The notes beneath the pieces are model-generated. The model ran no database searches. It was not told the origin of the DNA and was given only the letters and a program-made list of their open reading frames with translations. 64,000 nucleotides of DNA. It comes from a virus. Shown piece after piece: positions 22,183 through 63,295 of this stretch. The position numbers and the translations under genes are program-made. The DNA lies in IMG/VR virus record IMGVR_UViG_3300023179_000062, positions 21,487 to 85,486 of that record. One strand, given 5' to 3'. Each line of letters starts with the position of its first letter. The stretch's first letter is position 1.

Positions 22183-22941
22183 ATGGGTAGAATAAAATGG
22201 ACTGATGAAATGTTACATTCTGATGCATTAAAATATAAACATAGAAGTGATTGGCAGAAGAATTCCAGTGGTTATCAAATTGCTGATCGTAGAAATTTAT
22301 TAGATAGTTGCTGTCAACATATGGTGCCTAAAATAAATTGTTACACCCATAATATCGGTGTGATATATGCATTTATGTTTGATGATAAAACCATATATAT
22401 TGGACTGTCAGTTTCGCTACAGAAAAGATATAACTATCATTTAAGAGAAGGAATAGTTAATAAAAAAATTAATACATCTATACCTTATAAATTTATAATT
22501 TTGGAACAAAATATCCCTAATCAAATGCTATCAGAGAAAGAAATATTTTATATAGACAAATTTAAAAATGATGGATGGAATTTATTAAATATTGCTAAGG
22601 GTGGAAGTAGAGGTGGTACTTATATTAAAATTAAAAATGAAGAATTGATGAAATCTGCTTCAAAATATTCTTCAAGAACAGAATGGGCAAGACAGGAACA
22701 TAAATTATATAATGTGGCGGTTCATAGAAAATTAGTAGATAAATGTTGTGAACATATGACTGTTATTAAACGATCTTGGAATATTTCTGATGCAATTAAT
22801 GAAGCACAAAAATATTCAACTATTTCTGAATGGCAAAAAAATAATAAGTCATCTTACAATTTTTTATATAGAAAACCGGAAATGATGGATGCCATTGCAC
22901 ATATGAATAGACATTATATTAGAAAAACTAATACTATATAA
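22183..22941 (+). CDS. GIY-YIG homing endonuclease with three copies of a binding repeat
   Basis: 252 residues. The nuclease domain (about 58-150) has the GVIYAF and IYIGLS halves of the GIY-YIG motif, the conserved Arg in SLQKRYNYH, and the later metal-site region LSEKEIFYIDKF...WNLLNIAKGG. Three related repeats of about 35 residues flank it (about 11-47, 152-187 and 206-241), ending DSCCQHM, DKCCEHM and DAIAHM; these are DNA-recognition modules common in phage freestanding GIY-YIG enzymes. Its place between neck and protease genes of a compact cluster, and its higher A+T content, suggest lateral insertion by homing. No intron is evident. Confidence 0.85.
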   Translation: MGRIKWTDEMLHSDALKYKHRSDWQKNSSGYQIADRRNLLDSCCQHMVPKINCYTHNIGVIYAFMFDDKTIYIGLSVSLQKRYNYHLREGIVNKKINTSIPYKFIILEQNIPNQMLSEKEIFYIDKFKNDGWNLLNIAKGGSRGGTYIKIKNEELMKSASKYSSRTEWARQEHKLYNVAVHRKLVDKCCEHMTVIKRSWNISDAINEAQKYSTISEWQKNNKSSYNFLYRKPEMMDAIAHMNRHYIRKTNTI

Positions 22942-33934: not shown

Positions 33935-36900
33935 TTAGAATATCTCGTTAAGAGTTACTCCGGTTCTGTTGATTACAAGGTCTGCAATGATCATCTTGAT
34001 AGTGCGTGTTGGTTGCACATACACGGCTACTCTCATTAATCCTTGGTCGATACTTTCCGCAGTATTATTGCGTTCATCAACTACGATATCATATCCATAT
34101 AAACCTGCATTATCTTTCATGAAGTTAAGAATAGGACTGAGTTTATTCTTAACTCTTGTGCGAGTAATGATGGTGTTAGGTTGTCCGATAAACTCATACA
34201 AGTTATCTTGTAGAGAATTAGCTAACCATAGAAGACCTCTACGAATATAGTTTTCTTGTAATGCGCTTGGTTCTTTTTGAAGAGTCAAGGTATTATATAC
34301 GAGATAACCAGTATTAGGGAACTTAAGAATTGGGTTAATTCCAAGTTTAGTGATCAAGTCCATTTCACGTTGATTTGGATTGATAGCTAAATCTACAACA
34401 TTTGCAAGTGCTCCGTTCTTAGCACCTAATGCGGCAGTCCATGGGTATTGATTCTGATCGTTTCGTGCATAGAGTGCTGCTTTATAGGCAGAAGGGCCGA
34501 ACCATGCATAAGAGTCAGTGTTCATAGAATATCCTTTAATCCAGTTAGCATGGCTTTCTGAATAGTTGGAATCGGTTCCTGCAAAAAGGTTACGAAGGGG
34601 TGCCCAAATATTTCTGCTGAATGATGCATACTTTTCAGTAGGTTGTCCAGTAGAAGATTCAAGAATTAAACCTTTTTGACGGTTAGCCACTTTATAATCT
34701 TTACCATTTACGAAGATTTGACGAAGAGGGTCTTGAATATGTAAGTGTCCTACTCCACCATTTGCTTTACGAGTAAAGCGAGCAAAGGAATCGAAGATAT
34801 TATATATTGTAGTCCATGCATCAATGATAGGAGAGTTCATCGAAGTACCATCATAAGGTGATAGAGAATCGGTGTCTACGAAATAAGAATCGTCATAGTT
34901 GTAACAGATACTTGTATTTGTGATACAGTTATCGTTTGATACACTTGCGCGAGTTGCCCATATAGTAGAAAGTCCGTTATCAATTGTGATATCAATTGGG
35001 TATTGGAGAGGATTTTCAACATTCACTAAAGCTCTTTCAAGTTTAGCAGGAAGATTACCTATATCTTTCTTCTGGCACATAGTATAGAGAGAATCTCTAC
35101 AATAGCCATTATAAGCACCTACACCGTATAGGTTATCACCGTATGCAGCAAGTTGTGCCTCTGCATCGAAGTTATCAAATACCCCTCCGGTTTGTTCGCG
35201 GAACATTCTAACTGTTTTCTGTGGAACACCTTTAGAATCTGCCCAGCAATTGTTATTGGAGAGATATGGGTTAATCATAACTTTCAAATAATTGCTATTT
35301 GAAACGGATTTTTCAAGGAAGTATGAGCGAGGAGGACCACCGTATGAATCATTTACTTTTCTGTCTGCATTGAGAGAACCAGTAAACTGTTCAACTTTAA
35401 TCTGATCAAGTTTATTGATAGTTTCAGTCAATTGTGTTGGACGTAGTTTGAATAGAGTTACTGTAAGAGAATCATTATAATTCTTGCTGCTGAAATCTAT
35501 ACCGCCACCGTTTTCGACTATTTCGGAAATTGATCCAGCCGCACCATTAAAGGTTTGACTAGTGTGGAAATTCCAACGTTCGGATGGAACATGAATCCAA
35601 TTACCAGATACACCGGGACATACTTCTTGATAGTAACCTGCAACACTTGTGATGGAGTTGAAATCAGTAGAAGGATTTACATTTAGATTGTCATTTATGG
35701 CAAGATAGAATCCGCTAAAATCTTCAAGTTGGGCTGTTTTTGCAGTATTTACTACCACGATACCTGCACGAACATCATTATTGATGATATCCAAGCTTGG
35801 GGATGCATTTTCATATGCACCGCATTTCCAATTGAATTGTTCATTTTGAAGTAGGGTATATTCAGTTGCATTAAGTGTTTTACTGATAGGTTCACCTAAA
35901 ACATAGAAGTTTGCATCGTTTAACTGTGCATCACCTGCTACAGGATAGAAGTTATACTTATCAGCTTCAGGAACTTGTAGATTTAATGCGGTTATTGTGC
36001 TGCACGACAAACCTGCATCAACAGGCACACCACAGAAGGAGATTAAGAAATCAAGAGTGGTAGCATCTTTTGCAGATGTAGCAACCGTAATATTTGTTCC
36101 GGTTGTTATTGCAGAAAGGATAGAAACAGTTGTTTTATAAGTTCCTGCAACATCCGAATTAGCATTGAAATATTTCAATACAGGATTATTTGCAATGGAA
36201 TATGTACCGAAAACATCACCTGCACTCACATATAAACCAGTCAAAGTTTGACCAGAAAGTAAACCAGAATTAACATTATAAGTTCTTGCAAAGCTAGCAT
36301 CTGTTAAATCAACAATAAGACGTTTACCGTCATTTGATAGATGTGATTGATCTTCGTCTTTAGACACATAGATAGAGTCGAGAGAGAAAGCAGTAACAAC
36401 CGAATAGGTAGTATCCAATCCATTAACTGTAGGACGAAGTTGGAAAACCTTTAAATCTTCAGGAACGCTATCGCTATCAACTACGAATTTGAAACCAGTA
36501 ATGATCGAATTGTATTGAACTGGATGATCGTGGATATATAGCTTCCCTGCTTCTTCGTTGGAAGAATTGAGGGGGCAATTTAAATTGGCAGAACCATAGC
36601 AGATAGACGGACTTACAAAGTAAGAACTATATAACCATGGGAATTTGACACGGCATGAAGCTTCGTCGATGGAACGGAAATAATCACATGGGCTAACCTC
36701 TACAGCAGATACCCCGATAACAGGGAAAATAAGAGTGTTTACAGAATCAGAGTATCCAAGACCTGCACCGGAACCATATGGCATACGGGTAAAGAGGACG
36801 GATGCATCAGAAGTGTTTAGAAGTTGACTAATTGCATTATATGTATATTTTTCAGCGGATGTTTGAGGCAACCCAAAAAGTTGTTCAAATTCGGCTACCG

Positions 36901-37054
36901 ATGATACTGATGTGGGTTCATCAGAAATACCTTGTGATGCGAAACCTGCAAAGAAAACATTAGTTCCTGCGCGAGTGACAGTTGATCCAGATACGTCAAT
37001 TTCTCTGATAGCGACTCCCGGTGAATTTAAAATAGTATTAAGACTTGATGCCAT
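33935..37054 (-). CDS. gp18: Tail sheath protein, gp18-like, enlarged
   Basis: 1039 residues against 659 in T4. The N-terminus (LNTILNSPGVAIREIDVSGS, AGTNVFFAGFASQG, then EFEQLFG) and the C-terminal contractile core are typical: RQKGLILESSTG, WAPLRNLFAGTDSNYSES, LITKLGINPILKFPNTGYLV, ENYIRRGLLWLANSLQDNLY and the last 100 residues with QPTRTIKMIIADLVINRTGV. The additional length is in the beta-rich outer domains (about 90-560), which face outward in the T4 sheath. The sheath contracts to drive the tube through the envelope. The tube gene follows on the same strand. Confidence 0.93.
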   Translation of the reverse strand: MASSLNTILNSPGVAIREIDVSGSTVTRAGTNVFFAGFASQGISDEPTSVSSVAEFEQLFGLPQTSAEKYTYNAISQLLNTSDASVLFTRMPYGSGAGLGYSDSVNTLIFPVIGVSAVEVSPCDYFRSIDEASCRVKFPWLYSSYFVSPSICYGSANLNCPLNSSNEEAGKLYIHDHPVQYNSIITGFKFVVDSDSVPEDLKVFQLRPTVNGLDTTYSVVTAFSLDSIYVSKDEDQSHLSNDGKRLIVDLTDASFARTYNVNSGLLSGQTLTGLYVSAGDVFGTYSIANNPVLKYFNANSDVAGTYKTTVSILSAITTGTNITVATSAKDATTLDFLISFCGVPVDAGLSCSTITALNLQVPEADKYNFYPVAGDAQLNDANFYVLGEPISKTLNATEYTLLQNEQFNWKCGAYENASPSLDIINNDVRAGIVVVNTAKTAQLEDFSGFYLAINDNLNVNPSTDFNSITSVAGYYQEVCPGVSGNWIHVPSERWNFHTSQTFNGAAGSISEIVENGGGIDFSSKNYNDSLTVTLFKLRPTQLTETINKLDQIKVEQFTGSLNADRKVNDSYGGPPRSYFLEKSVSNSNYLKVMINPYLSNNNCWADSKGVPQKTVRMFREQTGGVFDNFDAEAQLAAYGDNLYGVGAYNGYCRDSLYTMCQKKDIGNLPAKLERALVNVENPLQYPIDITIDNGLSTIWATRASVSNDNCITNTSICYNYDDSYFVDTDSLSPYDGTSMNSPIIDAWTTIYNIFDSFARFTRKANGGVGHLHIQDPLRQIFVNGKDYKVANRQKGLILESSTGQPTEKYASFSRNIWAPLRNLFAGTDSNYSESHANWIKGYSMNTDSYAWFGPSAYKAALYARNDQNQYPWTAALGAKNGALANVVDLAINPNQREMDLITKLGINPILKFPNTGYLVYNTLTLQKEPSALQENYIRRGLLWLANSLQDNLYEFIGQPNTIITRTRVKNKLSPILNFMKDNAGLYGYDIVVDERNNTAESIDQGLMRVAVYVQPTRTIKMIIADLVINRTGVTLNEIF

Positions 37055-41313: not shown

Positions 41314-41961
41314 ATGCTTTATTATGTCCCCGTCACTGTTTCAAAGACCACCTGTATAGGTAATAGTTTATCAACTATCAATATAGGGTTCACTGCGCTT
41401 GATAATAATTTACAAGCACTATCTGCATGGACCGTGAGTAGTATAAACTTTTTAAGTGCTACTATGATTTCAGTGAGTTCGACGTTACAGAATAGAATAG
41501 AGTTTTTAAGCTCTACTATGATTGCAGTTAGCTCTAATTTACAGGCACAGGTGAACTATCTTAGTTCCACCATGATTTCGGTTAGCTCTAATCTACAGGG
41601 ACAGGTAAACTTTCTAAGTTCTGGTTTGAATTATTTAAGTGCTAATATAGTGAATACTCCCGGCACACTTACGCATGCACCATCTGGTGCAATATCATGG
41701 GATGTTGCTTCAGTCGGCAGAAACGCCAATCTTATACTATCATCTAACTGTTTCATGAGAAACCCTACTAATATTGTAGCAGGACAACAAGGGAATATAT
41801 CTATAATGTCTAGTGGAACTAGTGGTTATTCTATCACTTCCTTTGGTAGTAACTGGCGCTTCTCTGGTAGTACATCTATGAACGTAGCCGCAAGTGGTAG
41901 AAACCTAATCAGGTACTACTATGACGGTACTATGATACTCAGTCAGATGCTTCAGTATTAA
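41314..41961 (+). CDS. Small fibre protein with an 18-residue coiled-coil repeat
   Basis: 215 residues. Residues 46-99 are three near-identical 18-residue units ((F/Y)LSSTM(I)xVSSNLQxQVN), then a partial fourth. Eighteen residues make five helical turns, so the shaft should be an almost straight trimeric coil. The C-terminal 110 residues are Ser/Gly/Asn-rich beta (NLILSSNCFMRNPTNIVAGQ, GNISIMSSGTSGYSITSFGS) and look like a fibre head. The N-terminus (NSLSTINIGFTALDNNLQAL) resembles fibre or whisker attachment segments. It could be a neck whisker (fibritin-like) or short fibre; the two cannot be separated from sequence alone. Confidence 0.65.
   Translation: MLYYVPVTVSKTTCIGNSLSTINIGFTALDNNLQALSAWTVSSINFLSATMISVSSTLQNRIEFLSSTMIAVSSNLQAQVNYLSSTMISVSSNLQGQVNFLSSGLNYLSANIVNTPGTLTHAPSGAISWDVASVGRNANLILSSNCFMRNPTNIVAGQQGNISIMSSGTSGYSITSFGSNWRFSGSTSMNVAASGRNLIRYYYDGTMILSQMLQY
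41449..41610 (+). repeat. Three tandem 54-bp coding repeats
   Basis: Encode the 18-residue coiled-coil units of the small fibre protein. Confidence 0.8.
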
Positions 41962-51116: not shown

Positions 51117-53225
51117 ATGGCAACAACAACTCCCAATGACTTATTAACCGCGATTGATGCATATATGGCATCGAAAGGTAAAGGTATGGGATATCTAGCG
51201 ACTAGAGTGAGTGAACTTTTCGATGATAAAGATGCACCACTGAATGCTAAAACCGGACCACTAAGTTATATACATGAAATTTTTGACGATCTTCGGTTAG
51301 ATGTTAGATCATTGCATGTGGGTGCTGCATCACCTTTAGCAGTTTTTAGAAAAGAGACAAATTGGCTCAATAGAACATTGAAGTCATTTAATATAAAAAT
51401 CAAAAAAACTATGACTAGTTTAGATTTAATGGATTCTTATATTAAAGCAATGTCACATATCAATACTCCTAGTGGTAAAGGGGCTAGTAACACTCCATAT
51501 AAATTAACCTCTGATGGGTTATTGAAAGTGGCATTATTCGGTACCAAATGGAAATGGCCCGGAAGTCCAATGAATATGTTACCTGTGGTTGTTACAGGGT
51601 TCAGTATAAGTGCATTAACTGCCCTGTCATCATTTACTAATAAAGAGAAAATATTACCAACTTCTTCTAATTCGCCTATAAACAACGCTACTATTAGGCC
51701 CACACAAGTTAACACTGCGGTTGTCAACAATAATGTATCTGGCGAGACATCTTCGGGGGGTGGATGGTTATCTTCTATACTTGGAATTGGTGCTGGTTTG
51801 TTAGGAATTGGATGGTTAAATTCAGAAATGGATGAATCTTCTACTGGTAAAAAAATTAAAGAACATGTAAAGAATTTTATATCTCAAACATTTGATTCTA
51901 TTGGAAAATTCTTATCAGATAAAAAAACAATTAACAAACTTAAAAATGGTATAGCTTCTACATTAAGTGGAGTATGGTGGATTTTAGAAAAAGCATTTTC
52001 TAAAATAATCATTCCAGTGTTTACTGGTCTGATGGATGAAGCGCCTACTATTGCCAAAGCATTATTATTCAAAGGTATTTCGTGGCTAAATAAAATAACA
52101 TTTAAACTCTTTGATCTTAAAAATTGGGAAAAAAATATAAAAGGTTTTTTGAAAAATCCTCCCCCTTTACCGGGAAAAAAGGGCATAGGAGGTATCATAA
52201 GTAAATTATCTGTATTTGTTAGAAAAATTGCTCCTAAACTATTAAAGGGATTGAAATGGATACCCGGTTTAGGCACACTTATATCTGTTGGATTCGGTAT
52301 TGATCGTATTTGGAAAGGTGATTATTTTGGAGGATTTTTAGAAATAGCATCTGGAATAGCATATATTTTTCCCGGTGTGGGAACCGCAATCGGATTGGGA
52401 ATTGATGCTCTTAATATGTTCTTAGACTATAAACAAGATTCTGAACCTAATAAGGGTAAAGCATCTATATTAGGAGGTACCGTTTCAGAAATTTTCTCAT
52501 CTGCTAGAAAATGGATAGAAAATAAAATAGGTAAAAACCTAAAAGATTTACCTATTATAGGTAATTTTTTGAAAATAGGTGAATATATTGATAAAATGAA
52601 AACTGATCCGTTAGGAGGTTTACATGATGTGTTATCTTCGCTAGGAGGATTTATGGTTATACCGGGATTATCATCTACATTAAGTTTTATTAATTGGATG
52701 TCTTCACCAGATAAAGGAAACGATGTATCACAAGTAAAAAGTGATATTAATTCTTGGTATAATCCGTTAAAATTAACCGACAAAATATCTAATTGGGCAA
52801 AATCTTTATATGATTCTGCAACATCTATATTCAATGGTTCACCAGAAATTAAATATACTCCTGATGATATTAATGCGATGATGTATGGGGCAAATAATGT
52901 AAAAGATATTAAAAATATTAAAGCTGAACGATTTAATGATGCAACCGTTATTCAGCCACATTCCAAAGATCAAATCCTAATGGCTAAAAATGGTGGACCG
53001 TTTGATATTGCTATGAAACAAATGAATATATTAATGCGTGATAAATTAGATATGTTAATTGATATTATGACTGCAAATGTTCATGCAACTATTGAAGGAA
53101 GTAGTGCTGTGGTGAAAACTGTTGCATCCACATCTAATAGAGGGGGAGGATCATCTGGAGGATTTAGTTCTTCTCATGATGCTATACGTTCTATGAGAAA
53201 TCAAGTTAATCAAGCTATACGTTAA
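51117..53225 (+). CDS. gp29: Tape measure protein, gp29-like
   Basis: 702 residues (T4 gp29: 590 aa), which set tail length and line the tube. Features are long helices, a Ser/Gly/Asn linker near 200, hydrophobic stretches that could enter the host membrane (LSSILGIGAGLLGIGWLNSE, GLKWIPGLGTLISVGFGIDR, EIASGIAYIFPGVGTAIGLG) and a helical C-terminus (MKQMNILMRDKLDMLIDIMT) ending in a Ser/Gly-rich tail. It lies between hub-assembly genes and the tube-cap gene, the expected position. Sequence identity to gp29 itself cannot be judged here. Confidence 0.75.
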   Translation: MATTTPNDLLTAIDAYMASKGKGMGYLATRVSELFDDKDAPLNAKTGPLSYIHEIFDDLRLDVRSLHVGAASPLAVFRKETNWLNRTLKSFNIKIKKTMTSLDLMDSYIKAMSHINTPSGKGASNTPYKLTSDGLLKVALFGTKWKWPGSPMNMLPVVVTGFSISALTALSSFTNKEKILPTSSNSPINNATIRPTQVNTAVVNNNVSGETSSGGGWLSSILGIGAGLLGIGWLNSEMDESSTGKKIKEHVKNFISQTFDSIGKFLSDKKTINKLKNGIASTLSGVWWILEKAFSKIIIPVFTGLMDEAPTIAKALLFKGISWLNKITFKLFDLKNWEKNIKGFLKNPPPLPGKKGIGGIISKLSVFVRKIAPKLLKGLKWIPGLGTLISVGFGIDRIWKGDYFGGFLEIASGIAYIFPGVGTAIGLGIDALNMFLDYKQDSEPNKGKASILGGTVSEIFSSARKWIENKIGKNLKDLPIIGNFLKIGEYIDKMKTDPLGGLHDVLSSLGGFMVIPGLSSTLSFINWMSSPDKGNDVSQVKSDINSWYNPLKLTDKISNWAKSLYDSATSIFNGSPEIKYTPDDINAMMYGANNVKDIKNIKAERFNDATVIQPHSKDQILMAKNGGPFDIAMKQMNILMRDKLDMLIDIMTANVHATIEGSSAVVKTVASTSNRGGGSSGGFSSSHDAIRSMRNQVNQAIR

Positions 53226-53231
53226 TAACAT

Positions 53232-53239
53232 GATAAATA
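53232..53239 (+). promoter_or_regulatory. Late promoter box before the gp48-like gene
   Basis: GATAAATA, 6 nt before the ATG at 53246. Confidence 0.6.
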
Positions 53240-53245
53240 ATTATT

Positions 53246-54229
53246 ATGGCATCGACATCAGTATTATATAATAAACCTACAGAAGGTGCAAGTTTTTTAA
53301 CTCCTAAAGTGACAGGTGATATTAATGTTGTCGATGATTTTGCATGGACATTATCACCGAAATCAGCTAGGAAAGATGTCCCCTATATATACTTAGAAGA
53401 ATATCAGCAGACTACAGGGCAATTAATCGCATCTTTATCATATTATTCTCGTATCGCAGCTAATTTTGTGGCGGGTGAAACACCAAAAAATGTATACGAA
53501 GTTTATAAATATAAATATCTAGCAGAACCAACAGAATTTAGATATAGATTTCCATATTTCTCACAAGCGAAACATTCTAGGAGCACCAATTTTTCAGGCG
53601 AAGATAGTAAAAATCCTTTCCAATCTAGTATTGATTTAGGAAGAACGATGTTGGGATACGGACAGGGAAGCACTGCACAAGCTTCTCGTTTTTTTGGAAA
53701 AGAAATGGGAAATATAGGTAAATTAGCTACTTTAACAGAAACGGGAATCGCTATAGGAAATACAGTATTGCAGGGTAATATAAATTTCGAATTTCCTCAA
53801 AAATGGGTATCAACTAGTGAAAATTCAATATCAGTTAAATTTCATTTATTTAATACTGTATCATTAGAAGATACAGTATTAAATCGTGATCTTGCATTTA
53901 TATTAACATACCAGAATTCTGCAAGTAGAAGGAACTTTGCATTGAATGATCCGGTTGTGTTATATTCGTTAACCATTCCTGATGTGGTACATTTTCCCGC
54001 ATGTTACATGGATTCTCTCACAATTAATAATATTGGTAACACAAGATTAATAAAACATCAGGGGGTTGAGCGTATTATACCGGAAGCATACGAGTTTAAT
54101 ATGTCATTTAAATCATTATTTATGCCGACAAGAAATATCATGCTTGCACTTGATGATGGTGTCCCGGTGAAAACATTTGGAACATTTGCCGAGTTTAGTG
54201 AAGAGATGGATAGGTTAATATCCCGGTGA
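53246..54229 (+). CDS. gp48: Baseplate tail-tube cap protein, gp48-like, with an altered C-terminus
   Basis: 327 residues (T4 gp48: 364). Motifs of T4-like tube-cap proteins are SARKDVPYIYLEEYQQ near 40, YRFPYFSQAKHS near 110, QGNINFEFPQKWVSTSENSI with SVKFHLFNT near 190, and the tube-like C-terminal part DPVVLYSLTIPDVVHFPACY and VERIIPEAYEFNMSFKSLFM. The 3' end carries a 59-bp tandem duplication whose shift is not a multiple of three. The gene therefore stops early in the second copy (ending MDRLISR), and an unused former end (TEFSEETAKMLPGSK) remains downstream. Confidence 0.75.
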   Translation: MASTSVLYNKPTEGASFLTPKVTGDINVVDDFAWTLSPKSARKDVPYIYLEEYQQTTGQLIASLSYYSRIAANFVAGETPKNVYEVYKYKYLAEPTEFRYRFPYFSQAKHSRSTNFSGEDSKNPFQSSIDLGRTMLGYGQGSTAQASRFFGKEMGNIGKLATLTETGIAIGNTVLQGNINFEFPQKWVSTSENSISVKFHLFNTVSLEDTVLNRDLAFILTYQNSASRRNFALNDPVVLYSLTIPDVVHFPACYMDSLTINNIGNTRLIKHQGVERIIPEAYEFNMSFKSLFMPTRNIMLALDDGVPVKTFGTFAEFSEEMDRLISR

Positions 54230-54280
54230 AAACATTTGGAACATTTACCGAGTTTAGTGAAGAGACGGCTAAGATGCTAC
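54163..54280 (+). repeat. 59-bp imperfect tandem duplication at the 3' end of the gp48-like gene
   Basis: Copy 1 spans 54163-54221 and copy 2 54222-54280. The first 26 bases of each are identical, then substitutions accumulate toward the end. The second copy is read in a different frame and supplies the TGA at 54227. Confidence 0.9.
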
Positions 54281-54294
54281 CTGGTAGTAAGTAA
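54222..54294 (+). pseudogene. Remnant of the former C-terminal coding end of the gp48-like gene
   Basis: Read in the original frame this stretch encodes (I)PVKTFGTFTEFSEETAKM then LPGSK and a TAA at 54292, continuing the sense of the gene if the 59-bp duplication is removed. It is not translated in frame with the current gene. Confidence 0.7.
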
Positions 54295-54298
54295 TAAT

Positions 54299-54619
54299 AT
54301 GTCATCACAATTAAACATTTATGATTATGCAAATATTTTCTCCACTTTTACAGACGAAGATGGATATAAGTATTTTGATTTACTTAATAATCTTGTAATT
54401 CAAGGAGAGATTGATTCGGTATTATATAGTGAAATCTTTTATAATGAAAACACTTCTTGGTACGATTTATCATATAAATATTACGGAACAACCAGACTGT
54501 GGTGGACAATTCTAATTGCTAATAATATTATCAATCCTTTCGATGTAAAAACAGGTGAAAGAATAAAAATACTAAGAAAAGAAGTTATATCAGAAATATT
54601 ATCAAATATAAATAATTAA
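54299..54619 (+). CDS. gp53: Baseplate wedge protein, gp53-like
   Basis: 106 residues from the ATG at 54299 (MSSQLNIYDYANIF). A longer frame from 54236 would begin inside the duplicated remnant and is rejected. The C-terminal half WYDLSYKYYGTTRLWWTILI, NNIINPFDVKTGERIKIL is the conserved LysM-like part of gp53 (196 aa in T4), which joins wedges to the hub. Its last bases contain the late box of the next gene. Confidence 0.82.
   Translation: MSSQLNIYDYANIFSTFTDEDGYKYFDLLNNLVIQGEIDSVLYSEIFYNENTSWYDLSYKYYGTTRLWWTILIANNIINPFDVKTGERIKILRKEVISEILSNINN
54607..54614 (+). promoter_or_regulatory. Late promoter box before the gp27-like gene
   Basis: Perfect TATAAATA inside the 3' end of the gp53-like gene, 6 nt before the ATG at 54621. 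Confidence 0.65.
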
Positions 54620-54620
54620 A

Positions 54621-56225
54621 ATGTCCGATATTAATCCCAGTACCTACTCATTTAATAACCAAGACTATGATTTTACAGTGAGATTATATAATGGTATAAA
54701 TGATATATATTTAACAAACACAGCATGGGATGACTTATACTTAGAAGAAGATATTTTTAATCTTTTTATGAGGGGGTCTATCATAATTAATAATCCATAT
54801 AATATATTAGAACGCTCTTCTAAAGAAGCTAGGGACGCGCAAGGAGATTTATTAAAACTTGAATATAAATTTAGAAATGATGGACGCGACACTTTATATA
54901 TCTCAATAAAACCTAAAAGCGACAATATATTAGCAGAATCTCTAAAGGTAAAGTTAGATGATGATAGATGGTTAATTGAATTAGAACTAGTTGTATATGA
55001 AACACAAGATTTACCAAATGATGATACGTCACAAAAAAAGAAAAAATTATTTTTTTGGGAAAAATCTTATCAGATGATGTCTGAAAAAGATTCAGAATTC
55101 TCTACGGCAATAGCTGGTGAAAATGCTAATAAAACTGGACAAGATCAAGCAAATGACGATGCAAGAAGTCTTCCAACAGGTTCAGCATTGAAGGCATTAT
55201 TTGAAAATGATGAATATTTTAAACAACATGTTGAATCTATTCCTGATTCTTCATGGAATATAGGCGACACATCTAATCTATTATTCTACACTTCTCCTAT
55301 TGGAAATAAATTCATTGATGATTTATATGCTATATATAATAACCATGTTGCATCAGAAAGTGAAGGAAGCCAGCCATGTATTTTAAAATTGGAACGTCCT
55401 ACTGAAAAAGGTAAGATGCGTCAATTTACCCTTAAAACAATTCAACAATATTTCAAAGAAGCTGGTAAAGAAGAACCGGGACGTTATCAATTGGAACATT
55501 TTTTTATTAGAGAACAGACTGAGGAAGAGAAGGCTCCCCTTATCAAAAAGGCACCCCTATCCAGCAGTCAATCCAGTGAAATAAAAGGCGATGAATTTAA
55601 TCTAATTCGTAGTTATAATTTGACAGACTTATCAGGTAAAGATTATTCAGTTAATTTAGCAAATCGTCGAATAGTATCATATAATTCATCTGATAGACAA
55701 TGGAATATTGAATCAAAGGTGCATTCTGCTACAGAATGGCAAAATTTTTTTAATGAACGTATTAAACCTAACATACTAGTTTCTTCCAGCATTAAAAATG
55801 ATCCTTTACCTGTAACGCCTTATATAAAATTAGGAGAAAATAGTATAGTGGAGTACTCTACAAGACCTAATGAAAAAGGTCGATATGCAACTGGACGTAA
55901 TAAAATATTAAAATATTTCTTATTTTCAAATCTATCTATTTCATTCACCACTAGAGGTTTAACGCATCGTCAACCGGGTCGATTTTTCGGATTATCTAAG
56001 CAATCGCTTAATGATAAAGAGTATGATCATAAATTAGAAGGTCAATATTTTGTTACAGGAGTTAAACATTATTTCTCCAACACTCAACGTGGATACTACA
56101 CTGAATTAGTTGCAGTTAAAACCCATGTTTATCGTGAAGATATTAAATTACCAGATGGTGATGTTTTTATAATAGGTAAAATACCATTTACCCCTATACC
56201 ATTAAAACCAGTAATACCGGGTTAA
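54621..56225 (+). CDS. gp27: Baseplate central hub protein, gp27-like
   Basis: 534 residues (T4 gp27: 391). gp27 trimers form the hub ring that holds the gp5 spike. Features are an N-terminal beta domain (DFTVRLYNGINDIYLTNTAW, EEDIFNLFMRGSIIINNPYN), a middle helical, variable part with a long charged linker, and the C-terminal hub strand set RQPGRFFGLSKQSLNDKEYD, LEGQYFVTGVKHYFSNTQRG and YYTELVAVKTHVYRE. It lies between gp53-like and gp5-like genes. Confidence 0.75.
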   Translation: MSDINPSTYSFNNQDYDFTVRLYNGINDIYLTNTAWDDLYLEEDIFNLFMRGSIIINNPYNILERSSKEARDAQGDLLKLEYKFRNDGRDTLYISIKPKSDNILAESLKVKLDDDRWLIELELVVYETQDLPNDDTSQKKKKLFFWEKSYQMMSEKDSEFSTAIAGENANKTGQDQANDDARSLPTGSALKALFENDEYFKQHVESIPDSSWNIGDTSNLLFYTSPIGNKFIDDLYAIYNNHVASESEGSQPCILKLERPTEKGKMRQFTLKTIQQYFKEAGKEEPGRYQLEHFFIREQTEEEKAPLIKKAPLSSSQSSEIKGDEFNLIRSYNLTDLSGKDYSVNLANRRIVSYNSSDRQWNIESKVHSATEWQNFFNERIKPNILVSSSIKNDPLPVTPYIKLGENSIVEYSTRPNEKGRYATGRNKILKYFLFSNLSISFTTRGLTHRQPGRFFGLSKQSLNDKEYDHKLEGQYFVTGVKHYFSNTQRGYYTELVAVKTHVYREDIKLPDGDVFIIGKIPFTPIPLKPVIPG

Positions 56226-56250
56226 ATGGTATTTTATTGGTAAAATACAA

Positions 56251-56258
56251 GATAAATA
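56251..56258 (+). promoter_or_regulatory. Late promoter box before the 347-residue hub gene
   Basis: GATAAATA, 5 nt before the ATG at 56264. Confidence 0.6.
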
Positions 56259-56263
56259 TTTAA

Positions 56264-57307
56264 ATGGCAGAAGTCGTTACAGAACAGTTTTATCAAAGTC
56301 TAAGAGCTAGTCCATCGGGACAACAGCAGACAGGAACTATATTTGATGAACTCCACGGAGCAATGCAGACCTCACAGAACCCCTTAGATCGAACGGTTCA
56401 GATGATTTCTGAAACCCATGGACCATGGTCGGGGGGTTCAAACTCTTTATTCGGGTTCACCACCATGATTGCATCTATTTTAAACATTCCTATTTTAACA
56501 GTTTTATCAAATAAAATTGGGAATGCGGCGTGTGCAGTGGAAAAAGCGATATCATTATTACCTCCTTCATATGTAGGACGAGGAAACACCTTAACGGGTG
56601 CCACAATGAATACCGCACTTCTTAGAGAGTTTGTAACTACTGTTCAGAACATGCATCCGGCAATTAATGAATATATTGCAATGCACCAAGACACTTTCCC
56701 CTACTTTGCTCCTACTAGTGAAGAAGTGGGGTCTTTTGCATATATAACCATCAGAGAAACCGAAACCGATCCTTCTAAATGGGGTAAAAAGAATAATTCA
56801 GGATGTTTAGATAATAATTCTAGAATTCATAAAAATCAGACATTTAAAATGATACCATCTATTCATCAAGGAATGGATACTAGTAATCGTTTAGTTAATA
56901 CTATATTTGTTAGAAATTTGCAAGGAGATAACAACATGGCAGTGTTACATCCTGACTATAGTCAGGAACGGGCCATTGTACATGGTCATAACTTTACCAT
57001 GGATGTGTTTCAAGCAGGACGTAGAAAATCAGCAATGCCGGGATGTCTAGCGGCGATTATCGAATTAGCAGGTGATCTAATACGCTTAATAAATAAATTC
57101 TTCTGTCTATTATCTTTAGGTAGATATGAATTAGAAACATTTAATATCACTTTTGCACAAGGCGGACCAAATGATAGTCCTGTAACAATTGTTGTTGATA
57201 ATAAGGGACGGTTAATATCAACCGCTCCAAAATCAAATACTGTCAATGATCCTACAAACGATAAAATGATAAATGCTAAGACGGAGCATAAACAGGAGAA
57301 ACAATAA
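56264..57307 (+). CDS. Uncharacterised baseplate-hub cluster protein
   Basis: 347 residues. An N-terminal Gln/Ser/Gly-rich part is followed by a hydrophobic segment near 60-100 (GFTTMIASILNIPILTVLSN), a helical region NTALLREFVTTVQNMHPAIN, and a beta domain containing VNTIFVRNLQGDNNMAVLHP and ERAIVHGHNFTMDVFQAGRR. A second hydrophobic stretch AAIIELAGDLIRLINKFFCL is near 270. Between gp27- and gp5-like genes, with a 1-nt overlap to the latter, it is probably a hub component delivered with the tube tip. Family not recognised. Confidence 0.6.
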   Translation: MAEVVTEQFYQSLRASPSGQQQTGTIFDELHGAMQTSQNPLDRTVQMISETHGPWSGGSNSLFGFTTMIASILNIPILTVLSNKIGNAACAVEKAISLLPPSYVGRGNTLTGATMNTALLREFVTTVQNMHPAINEYIAMHQDTFPYFAPTSEEVGSFAYITIRETETDPSKWGKKNNSGCLDNNSRIHKNQTFKMIPSIHQGMDTSNRLVNTIFVRNLQGDNNMAVLHPDYSQERAIVHGHNFTMDVFQAGRRKSAMPGCLAAIIELAGDLIRLINKFFCLLSLGRYELETFNITFAQGGPNDSPVTIVVDNKGRLISTAPKSNTVNDPTNDKMINAKTEHKQEKQ

Positions 57308-58794
57308 TGGGACAATATAATGATCAATACCGAGGGATTATTATCAATCATAATGACCCAAACAATGCAGGACGAGTAAAAGTGTTCGTTCCAGAAGTCA
57401 ATGCCACTCTTCTCACAAATTGGAATAAAGACCTTAAAAACGATAAAGCTATCACCCATATGGGCGATAACACAGGAACATCATTAACTCGTGAAATCCA
57501 AGATAGATTACGTAAAATGTTGCCGTGGGCAGAAGTCTCCTATCCTATTTTTGGTATGTCAACTCCTGCATTTTTCGATGCAGCCGCTAATATATCATTT
57601 ATAGGTAATGATGGAGGTTTGACCAGTCAAGACAGCAACAAAACCGCAGAAGCATTTGAGCAAGATAAATCAGAAGAATCACAAAGAAAGGATGCTCCTC
57701 CCACTACTGATTCATATGCGAAGTCTCCTCGCCAAACAATCTATCAAGTAGATGTTAACACAGGTAAAACCATGTGTTTACCTGTTAACTGTGGCAATGG
57801 AAATCCTAATCAGACATCCTTTCCTTCTATATATTTAGGTTATAAAAAGAATTCATGTATATATAATTTGATACAGAATCAACCTAAGACATATACTATA
57901 GGTGAAACTATTATACCTCCATCAGATGCTAATCCTATTAATGATTTCAACACTGATAAAAATATTTCTATATCACGAATTACATTAGATGTGCAAAACC
58001 CTGACATCACTATCAATGATAAAAAGGTTGATGTGAATGCTACTATTTTCGGAGTAAAGTGTTTCGTTCCTATTGATAACTCAAACTTAAGATATAATCC
58101 ACCTATTCTATTCGAGACATCTACCTCATCAAACTTTCCAGAAAATTATAATGATATTCCGATACGTATGACAATAAACGGAAGCAATAAAATTACACAA
58201 GATTTCTACTATTCATCTATGAATGGAAACAGTTATATCTATAAAGCGGGTAATATGGCCGTAGGTATCAGTGCAGATAATATCAATAAAATAACCTTGG
58301 CAACTAATGGCTCTCCCACAAACATATCAAAGTTACAGAAAATCTTACCATTGATTATTGCTAATTTAGGATTGTTGCAAACTTTAGGTAATATCATTAT
58401 GCCTAGAGGTACTACCAATAAAACAATGATTTCTAGAGGTGGCGGCGGTAGCGAGTTATATAACCATGTCAATTCATCATTATTACCTGAACAAGTTAGA
58501 AGAAATTCATTAATTGGTGCTCATAATAATGCATCTAGATATACCCAAAATCAAGGCACTAGAAATATGTCAGATTATAAGAGTAATACAGAAGCAAATA
58601 TTCAAGGTAGGCCAGATATGAATGGACCTTATCGTTCTTCTGATCAAAATAATAACTATAAAGGTATTGTATCTATGCCTGCACCGGGCGCACATGTATG
58701 GGTGCGTTTCGAACAAGGTGATCCTAATCGTCCTATAATTATTGGAACATTTACATCTAAAAATGATATGATGAATATATACGGAATGATATGA
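57307..58794 (+). CDS. gp5: Baseplate hub OB-fold protein, N-terminal part of gp5, with an altered C-terminus
   Basis: 495 residues. Residues 1-80 are the gp5 OB-fold start (YRGIIINHNDPNNAGRVKVF, then VPEV and MLPWAEVSYPIFG). The end (YKGIVSMPAPGAHVWVRFEQ, GDPNRPIIIGTF) is the closing part of the same fold, so an insertion of about 330 residues splits it. No lysozyme domain is seen, unlike T4 gp5; the spike is on the next gene. A 23-bp tandem duplication shifts the frame at the 3' end: the protein ends MMNIYGMI in place of an earlier MKNIYGVETK. Confidence 0.78.
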   Translation: MGQYNDQYRGIIINHNDPNNAGRVKVFVPEVNATLLTNWNKDLKNDKAITHMGDNTGTSLTREIQDRLRKMLPWAEVSYPIFGMSTPAFFDAAANISFIGNDGGLTSQDSNKTAEAFEQDKSEESQRKDAPPTTDSYAKSPRQTIYQVDVNTGKTMCLPVNCGNGNPNQTSFPSIYLGYKKNSCIYNLIQNQPKTYTIGETIIPPSDANPINDFNTDKNISISRITLDVQNPDITINDKKVDVNATIFGVKCFVPIDNSNLRYNPPILFETSTSSNFPENYNDIPIRMTINGSNKITQDFYYSSMNGNSYIYKAGNMAVGISADNINKITLATNGSPTNISKLQKILPLIIANLGLLQTLGNIIMPRGTTNKTMISRGGGGSELYNHVNSSLLPEQVRRNSLIGAHNNASRYTQNQGTRNMSDYKSNTEANIQGRPDMNGPYRSSDQNNNYKGIVSMPAPGAHVWVRFEQGDPNRPIIIGTFTSKNDMMNIYGMI

Positions 58795-58807
58795 AGAATA
58801 TATACGG
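58762..58807 (+). repeat. 23-bp tandem duplication at the 3' end of the hub OB-fold gene
   Basis: Copies 58762-58784 and 58785-58807 differ at one base. The shift of 23 changes frame and brings in the TGA at 58792. The unused frame continues GVETK and a stop, ending at 58823. Confidence 0.9.
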
Positions 58808-58814
58808 AGTCGAA

Positions 58815-58822
58815 ACTAAATA
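58815..58822 (+). promoter_or_regulatory. Possible late promoter box before the spike gene
   Basis: ACTAAATA, 6 nt before the ATG at 58829. Confidence 0.5.
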
Positions 58823-58828
58823 AAATCA

Positions 58829-60877: not shown

Positions 60878-61471
60878 ATGGATGATAAAGAATTAAAGAA
60901 AAAGTATAAAGCTGATTATTATCGGAGAAATAAAGATAGAATTAGAGAACAACAGAGAATTTATCGCGAACAAAATCATGATAGTATCACTATTCAGAAA
61001 AAGAAAGACTATCTACAAAATAAAGAAATATATAAACATCGTACACGCCAATACCAATTGTCTAATAAAGATAAATGCCAAGATTATAATAAAATGTATT
61101 GGCAAAAAGAAAAGGATAAAATGATTGATATAGTGTATAAAGAAACAATTTTAATAAAAAATAGAGAAAAATTGAAAAGATATAGACAAAAACATGGGGA
61201 TAAAATTAAACAATATAAACTTTTGAATAGCGCAAAAAGTAATTTATATAAATCGAAACGACGTTGTAAACAAAACCAACATTCATTACCAATTAATAAT
61301 AAAATTATTACTACTATATATGAAACATCTAGGAGAATATCAAATTGTTTACAAATATCTTTTCATGTTGATCATATAATTCCAATATCAAAAGGAGGCA
61401 TTCATCATGAAAATAATCTTCAAATTTTACCAGCTATTATAAATCTCAGGAAAAGTGCTAAAATAATATAA
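60878..61471 (+). CDS. HNH homing endonuclease
   Basis: 197 residues. The N-terminal 120 are extremely Lys/Arg/Gln/Tyr-rich repeats that probably bind DNA (YYRRNKDRIREQQRIYREQN). The C-terminus has the HNH core FHVDHIIPISKGGIHHENNL followed by QILPAIINLRKS, with the DH pair, the Asn of ENNLQ and the closing N.RK helix. No zinc-binding Cys pairs are seen. The base composition is more A-rich than its neighbours, and it splits the spike and endolysin genes, so it is a likely mobile freestanding endonuclease. Confidence 0.85.
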   Translation: MDDKELKKKYKADYYRRNKDRIREQQRIYREQNHDSITIQKKKDYLQNKEIYKHRTRQYQLSNKDKCQDYNKMYWQKEKDKMIDIVYKETILIKNREKLKRYRQKHGDKIKQYKLLNSAKSNLYKSKRRCKQNQHSLPINNKIITTIYETSRRISNCLQISFHVDHIIPISKGGIHHENNLQILPAIINLRKSAKII

Positions 61472-62989: not shown

Positions 62990-63295
62990 TTATAATGAAG
63001 GTGTGATAAGTGAAAATTGTGTCATTGGTATATTCCAAGATTGTGTTTTTTTATAAAATTCTGCCAATGAAATTATTTCAATATCGCGTTTTTCTTGATT
63101 AGTAGAAAAGATTGTTCCTACATGTGTAACCCAAAACATTCTCGCATCTTTTTCAATTAAAAGACGCGGAGGGACGGGTTCGCTAAAGCACTGACAGTTT
63201 GGGTCTACAGGTGGAATATCCCACTGAATTCTATATAATCTTTCATTATGGACCACATATTCTTGTGGGGGTAAAGATGCATGTTTTATTTCCAT
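62990..63295 (-). CDS. Uncharacterised small protein next to the sliding clamp
   Basis: 101 residues of beta-rich type (EYVVHNERLYRIQWDIPPVD, ARMFWVTHVGTIFSTNQEKR). CQC near 34-36 are the only Cys residues. No family recognised. It starts 1 nt after the clamp stop, so it is co-transcribed with it. Confidence 0.55.
   Translation of the reverse strand: MEIKHASLPPQEYVVHNERLYRIQWDIPPVDPNCQCFSEPVPPRLLIEKDARMFWVTHVGTIFSTNQEKRDIEIISLAEFYKKTQSWNIPMTQFSLITPSL

Follow-up and report, generated by a model that had tools for sequence, protein, structure and literature searches.

A 59-bp tandem duplication at the end of a gp48-like baseplate gene in a T4-type phage

Short tandem duplications of DNA belong to a general class of mutation, produced by slipped-strand copying or short-homology joining. 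In phage T4, gene 39/60 is split by a homing endonuclease, and gene 60 carries a 50-nt insert that is bypassed (PMC5009743). A literature search, drawing on parts of its sources, found nothing on a duplication at the gp48-gp53 junction.

The DNA analyzed here (the window) is a 64,000-base part of a virus record that is 85,486 bases long and comes from a metagenomic collection. The phage is of the T4 type, with genes for a gp23-like major head protein, terminase, sheath, and baseplate. Its tail-sheath gene (33938-37054) is long, encoding 1039 aa, and the sheath-family match of the product is confined to residues 826-1034, its last fifth. A tandem duplication lies at the end of the gp48-like baseplate gene, ahead of the gp53-like gene (Table 1), and is probably an ordinary tandem duplication that survived by touching only a variable tail.

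Table 1. Positions, within the window, of the genes, repeat copies, and stop codons discussed in the text
Feature	Positions	Strand	Details
GIY-YIG endonuclease-like gene	22183-22941		
gp48-like baseplate tail-tube cap gene	53246-54229	+	ORF, 327 aa, end ...AEFSEEMDRLISR; fold matches
59-bp duplication, copy 1, conserved core (45 bp)	54162-54206	+	44/45 identical to 54221-54265
59-bp duplication, copy 1, 3′ part or junction filler	54207-54220	+	8/14 alike to 54266-54279; encodes most of the new end
59-bp duplication, copy 2 (59 bp; core 54221-54265)	54221-54279	+	Offset-59 comparison
Likely old gp48 end, out of frame	54226-54294	+	VKTFGTFTEFSEETAKMLPGSK, stop TAA 54292-54294
Present gp48 stop, TGA	54227-54229	+	Bases 7-9 of copy 2; overlaps old-frame GTG (GTGA 54226-54229)
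gp53-like baseplate wedge gene	54299-54619	+	PHROG 7145 baseplate wedge subunit, E 3e-10
23-bp duplication, copy 1, end of gp5-like gene (57307-58794)	58762-58784	+	
23-bp duplication, copy 2; new stop TGA 58792-58794	58785-58807	+	Undivided in relative G027/L178
Old gp5-like end, out of frame	58791-58823	+	MKNIYGVETK + stop; cf. NIFGVD + stop in G027
HNH endonuclease-like gene	60878-61471		No such gene there in G027

The duplicated sequence and its reading frames

When the two copies are compared at an offset of 59 bases, similarity beyond the 45-bp cores and the 14 bases that follow them is at background only. With a score of 42 against 29 for the runner-up, this is the top repeat in the window at any offset from 20 to 200. 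No base separates the copies if the unit is taken as 59, and a second copy of the duplicated region was not found elsewhere in the record. The first-pass annotation had recognized a 59-bp tandem duplication at this gene end, and the duplication is real, although its start had been placed one base late (54163, instead of 54162). The same annotation was right that the gene shifts frame and stops within copy 2, 59 not being a multiple of three, that an older end is left unread before gp53, and that the copies diverge mainly in their 3′ parts.

The differences between the copies are distributed unevenly, with 1 in the 45 positions of the core and 6 in the 14 positions of the 3′ part (Fisher P = 4e-4). 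At least 8 matches in 14 also turn up in 2.5-3.4% of random pairs, which leaves it uncertain whether bases 54207-54220 are a copy at all. A search of the window for a source of the 15 bases 54206-54220 gave five matches at up to three mismatches, counting the sequence itself, where chance alone predicts 6.45. Simple slippage by 59 bp should have left copies that differ evenly, but this is not the pattern seen, and a shorter unit with a 14-base filler, or the joining of two alleles, would fit the uneven divergence better. Rapid change of the new end, in line with the suggestion of the first-pass annotation that it has evolved, may be another cause.

The gp48-like gene reads through copy 1 and halts in copy 2, giving a protein that ends in EEMDRLISR, and the old end is still readable behind the new stop. 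The old stop lies 4 nt ahead of the gp53 ATG at 54299 and the present stop 69 nt ahead of it. The older gp48 end most likely survives in copy 2, because gp48 stops 1-25 nt before gp53 in 11 distinct relatives, a layout that the old stop fits and the present stop does not. Gene spacing, together with the two parallel cases described below, thus points to the direction of change at this gene end.

Shine-Dalgarno pairing is unfavorable (energy 0 or above) at 19 of the 25 plus-strand gene starts tested in the window, and this pattern resembles that of phages whose hosts do not rely on Shine-Dalgarno sequences. The gp53 start has a pairing score of -3.1. A longer gp53 beginning at an alternative TTG start (54236) is possible, its one support being the pairing of -6.0 at that codon. 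Loss of translational coupling to gp53 was also considered; harm to gp53 is not claimable, since most of the tested starts do without favorable pairing and copy 2 retains the bases just before the gp53 ATG.

The gp48-like protein and its relatives

Sequence libraries (PHROG, PDB profiles, and Pfam) provided no name for the gp48-like protein, the only Pfam entry being DUF1967 at an E value of 0.035, below its cut-off. A structure model built from a 20-sequence alignment, the window included (mean pLDDT 69.5), matched chain BE of the T4 baseplate entry 5iv5 (Z 10.5, rmsd 3.1, 155 aligned residues), with further fold matches to the baseplate of Klebsiella phage KP1 and to viral (BFVD) proteins named baseplate tail tube cap. 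The name gp48-like therefore holds by predicted fold (the gp48/gp54 tube initiators), and not by sequence profile.

The changed part of the protein is its hypervariable tail. The last invariant column of the 20 sequences is N297 of 327, and residue 298 is the last one matched to the T4 baseplate chain. The first-pass annotation had proposed aligning the C termini of close relatives. The stretch after the RNIM motif has 28 residues here and 32-89 in 11 relatives, for a range of 28-89 residues in the 12 proteins. Residues 314-326 are modelled as a helix with a pLDDT of about 70, the tail not being predicted as disordered, and some structure matches extend to residues 312-327. Between two of the relatives, L157 and L158, a one-base change from T5 to T6 similarly shifts where gp48 ends in L158, so that NNS goes unread, a difference that may be a homopolymer error.

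Relatives were reached by way of the capsid protein and terminase and then through gp48 in their records (15 of 50 at E ≤0.01), as well as by profile. The profile search yielded 24 gp48 loci, of which 14 were at least 40% identical and 11 of those distinct. In all 14, gp48 and gp53 are 1-25 nt apart, and the distances from gp48 stop to gp53 start in the 11 distinct relatives are 1, 4, 6, 1, 11, 1, 25, 1, 4, 7, and 1 nt. Among the 10 more distant loci, nine have gp48 and gp53 within 34 nt of each other or overlapping, and the tenth runs off its contig. An insert at the gp48-gp53 junction was found in none of the 23 loci, out of 24, at which the junction could be measured.

No close DNA or protein relatives were found in the phage collection, a single-protein search of viral contigs with gp48 returned no relatives, and the peptide pattern VKTFGTF[AT]EF had 0 matches in viral contigs. 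An undivided relative with the gp48 tail of the window was not found in the phage collection, the viral contigs, or the records of the kin. A search of genome contigs with the terminase gave two loci, both in Methanobrevibacter MAGs and 42% identical over residues 21-269, which were left out of the comparisons.

The closest relative is G027 (IMGVR_UViG_3300010885_029461), with a terminase identity of 100%. In bins of 100 bases, the two sequences are 99-100% alike at 51.3-51.7 kb, the start of the compared piece, and 55-95% alike in a divergent tract at ~51750-56300; to the right of this tract, up to 60.7 kb, they are mostly 93-100% alike, with some bins as low as 79%. The tract spans the end of a 702-aa gene (51117-53225), gp48, gp53, and the next gene, and the 59-bp duplication sits inside it.

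Frame-breaking duplications at gene ends

Tandem duplications (unit 13-250, score at least 20) were surveyed in 48 of 86 related records (G000-G085), covering 2,538,182 bases that are partly redundant (2,408,437 bases non-redundant at 90% identity); 12 of the 48 records lack their last 0.1-10.6 kb. Ten codon-block shuffles, two for each of five records, gave zero repeats at the same threshold. The survey recovered 72 tandem duplications, with units that are multiples of three in 64 cases: 61 inside ORFs, two at a stop (9.2 expected), and one between genes. One such in-frame duplication, of 54 bp, lies within an ORF of the window (41507-41621); in-frame duplications of 54 bp also occur in G027 and G028, each in an ORF equal in length to this one.

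The other eight units break the frame. By a first count, none was inside a called ORF (6.72 expected), four were between genes, and four were at stops (0.76 expected, P = 0.0038). Comparison with homologues revealed that a 106-bp duplication in G076 (L289; 24053-24273 in the coordinates of that record) breaks a gene of ~300 aa midway, through a genuine knockout or else a fault of assembly. The recount thus places three of the eight at gene ends (two of them in this phage), four between genes, and one in a broken gene. In 20,000 trials of random placement, at least three of eight fell at stops with P = 0.031 and at most one of eight fell inside ORFs in 0 trials; the inside-ORF class is circular in part, since the ORF called over a frame-breaking duplication comes out shorter. 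These counts suggest a gene-end bias of frame-breaking duplications that is a pattern and not a law, given the small number of cases and an ORF calling that favors the same outcome.

The second case in this phage is the 23-bp duplication in the gp5-like gene (Table 1), whose protein now ends in NDMMNIYGMI, with the old end NIYGVETK unread behind it. The gp5-like gene of G027 carries no duplication and ends in NDIKNIFGVD, which is similar, not equal, to the old end. The third case is in G004 (IMGVR_UViG_3300003815_000002), where a 164-aa gene carries two tandem copies of a 40-bp unit at its end and now terminates in NNKFYIN. Its old end in copy 2, as read from the sequence, is NNENTL and runs into the start of the next gene at 63240. 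NNENTL is the exact end of two of the four homologues, those in this phage (G000) and in G027; the others end in NNEDTF (G028) and, in the more distant G029, in RATRL.

Both present stops in the window overlap a start codon of the old frame (GTGA and ATGA). Such a start codon at the new TGA is expected about three times in four, because a unit of 2 mod 3 puts NTG in the old frame. It is quite improbable that the old ends were restarted as small reading frames at these stops (GTGA 54226 and ATGA 58791), passing translation on to the next gene, with frame-breaking duplications at gene ends serving as a recurrent route of C-terminus exchange that parts tightly packed genes.

Origin of the duplication and comparison with known systems

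Between the two origins offered by the first-pass annotation, simple replication slippage and the loss of a mobile endonuclease, the former is the better, in the sense of slippage or a kindred accident. By the mechanism that we infer, a tandem duplication of ~59 bp would have arisen during replication or repair, through slipped-strand copying or short-homology joining, and would have fallen across the end of the gp48-like gene. Since 59 is not divisible by three, a ribosome would then read copy 2 in a different frame and would meet the TGA near the beginning of that copy. The old last residues would thereby be lost and MDRLISR gained; copy 2 would retain the old end, out of frame, as well as the sequence directly before the gp53 start. 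The duplication may have survived because only the hypervariable tail was altered and both neighboring genes stayed whole; the tail of gp48 would appear to be dispensable.

A different event, namely unequal recombination or template switching between two gp48-tail alleles in a mixed infection, would leave each copy ending as one of the alleles. It would suit both the uneven differences between the copies and the divergence of this region from G027 between more similar flanks, but no donor allele with either end was found in the phage collection or the viral contigs, and the 8 matches in the last 14 bases may be chance; this origin is considered unlikely. An assembly artefact, in which a metagenome contig fused two strain variants head to tail, is a distinctly unlikely source of the repeat. 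The record does come from a metagenomic collection, and a second record with the duplication junction was not found, but the gene-end cases occur in two different records, and an artefactual junction would need reads across it. Assemblers tend to collapse a 45-bp near-repeat, not to invent one.

There is very little probability that the duplication is the scar of a lost homing endonuclease that had arrived with a gene-end copy of its own. Two endonuclease-like genes, of the GIY-YIG and HNH types, are present in the window, the tract at 51.8-56.2 kb is mosaic with respect to the closest relative, and the unequal divergence of the copies would suit a foreign end. Against such a scar, the measurable gp48-gp53 junctions of the relatives carry no insert; the copies in the window abut if the unit is 59; and the gene ahead of the HNH gene is intact, its end not duplicated. 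The 23-bp and 40-bp cases likewise have no endonuclease gene between their copies. Restoration of the old end in translation, by a -1 shift or a ribosome hop over the insert as in T4 gene 60, is extremely unlikely. The insert is flanked by identical sequence, making a hop between equal codons conceivable, and no stop interrupts the old frame before its own. However, CGG, the codon before the TGA, does not recur among the 23 old-end codons, and a ribosome taking off within copy 1 would do so with no stop codon next to it. A -1 shift is possible only between the old-frame TAG and the new-frame TGA, where no usual slippery heptamer is apparent by eye.

The finding is ordinary in kind and indicates no new system. 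It provides a clear example of a compact phage genome altering the end of a protein with the flanking genes unharmed. Three such cases, spread over two related phages, suggest that frame-breaking duplications can survive at gene ends, and their recurrence there is of some interest.

Compared with known systems, the locus resembles T4 gene 39/60 in being a gene of a T4-type phage with an out-of-frame insert (PMC5009743); in contrast to gene 39/60, it has no endonuclease and no split product, and the codon next to its stop lacks an equal landing codon. Short tandem duplications in general share with it the head-to-tail copies and the loss of frame for any unit not divisible by three. Unlike the general class, the duplication in the gp48-like gene spans a stop codon, with the body of the gene kept and only its end exchanged, and the 3′ quarter of its copies differs more than the remainder. 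The 40-bp case in G004 is alike in that a frame-breaking unit lies across the stop, the gene now stops in copy 2, and the old end goes unread before the next gene; it differs in that its old end overlaps the start of the next gene and equals the ends of two undivided homologues.
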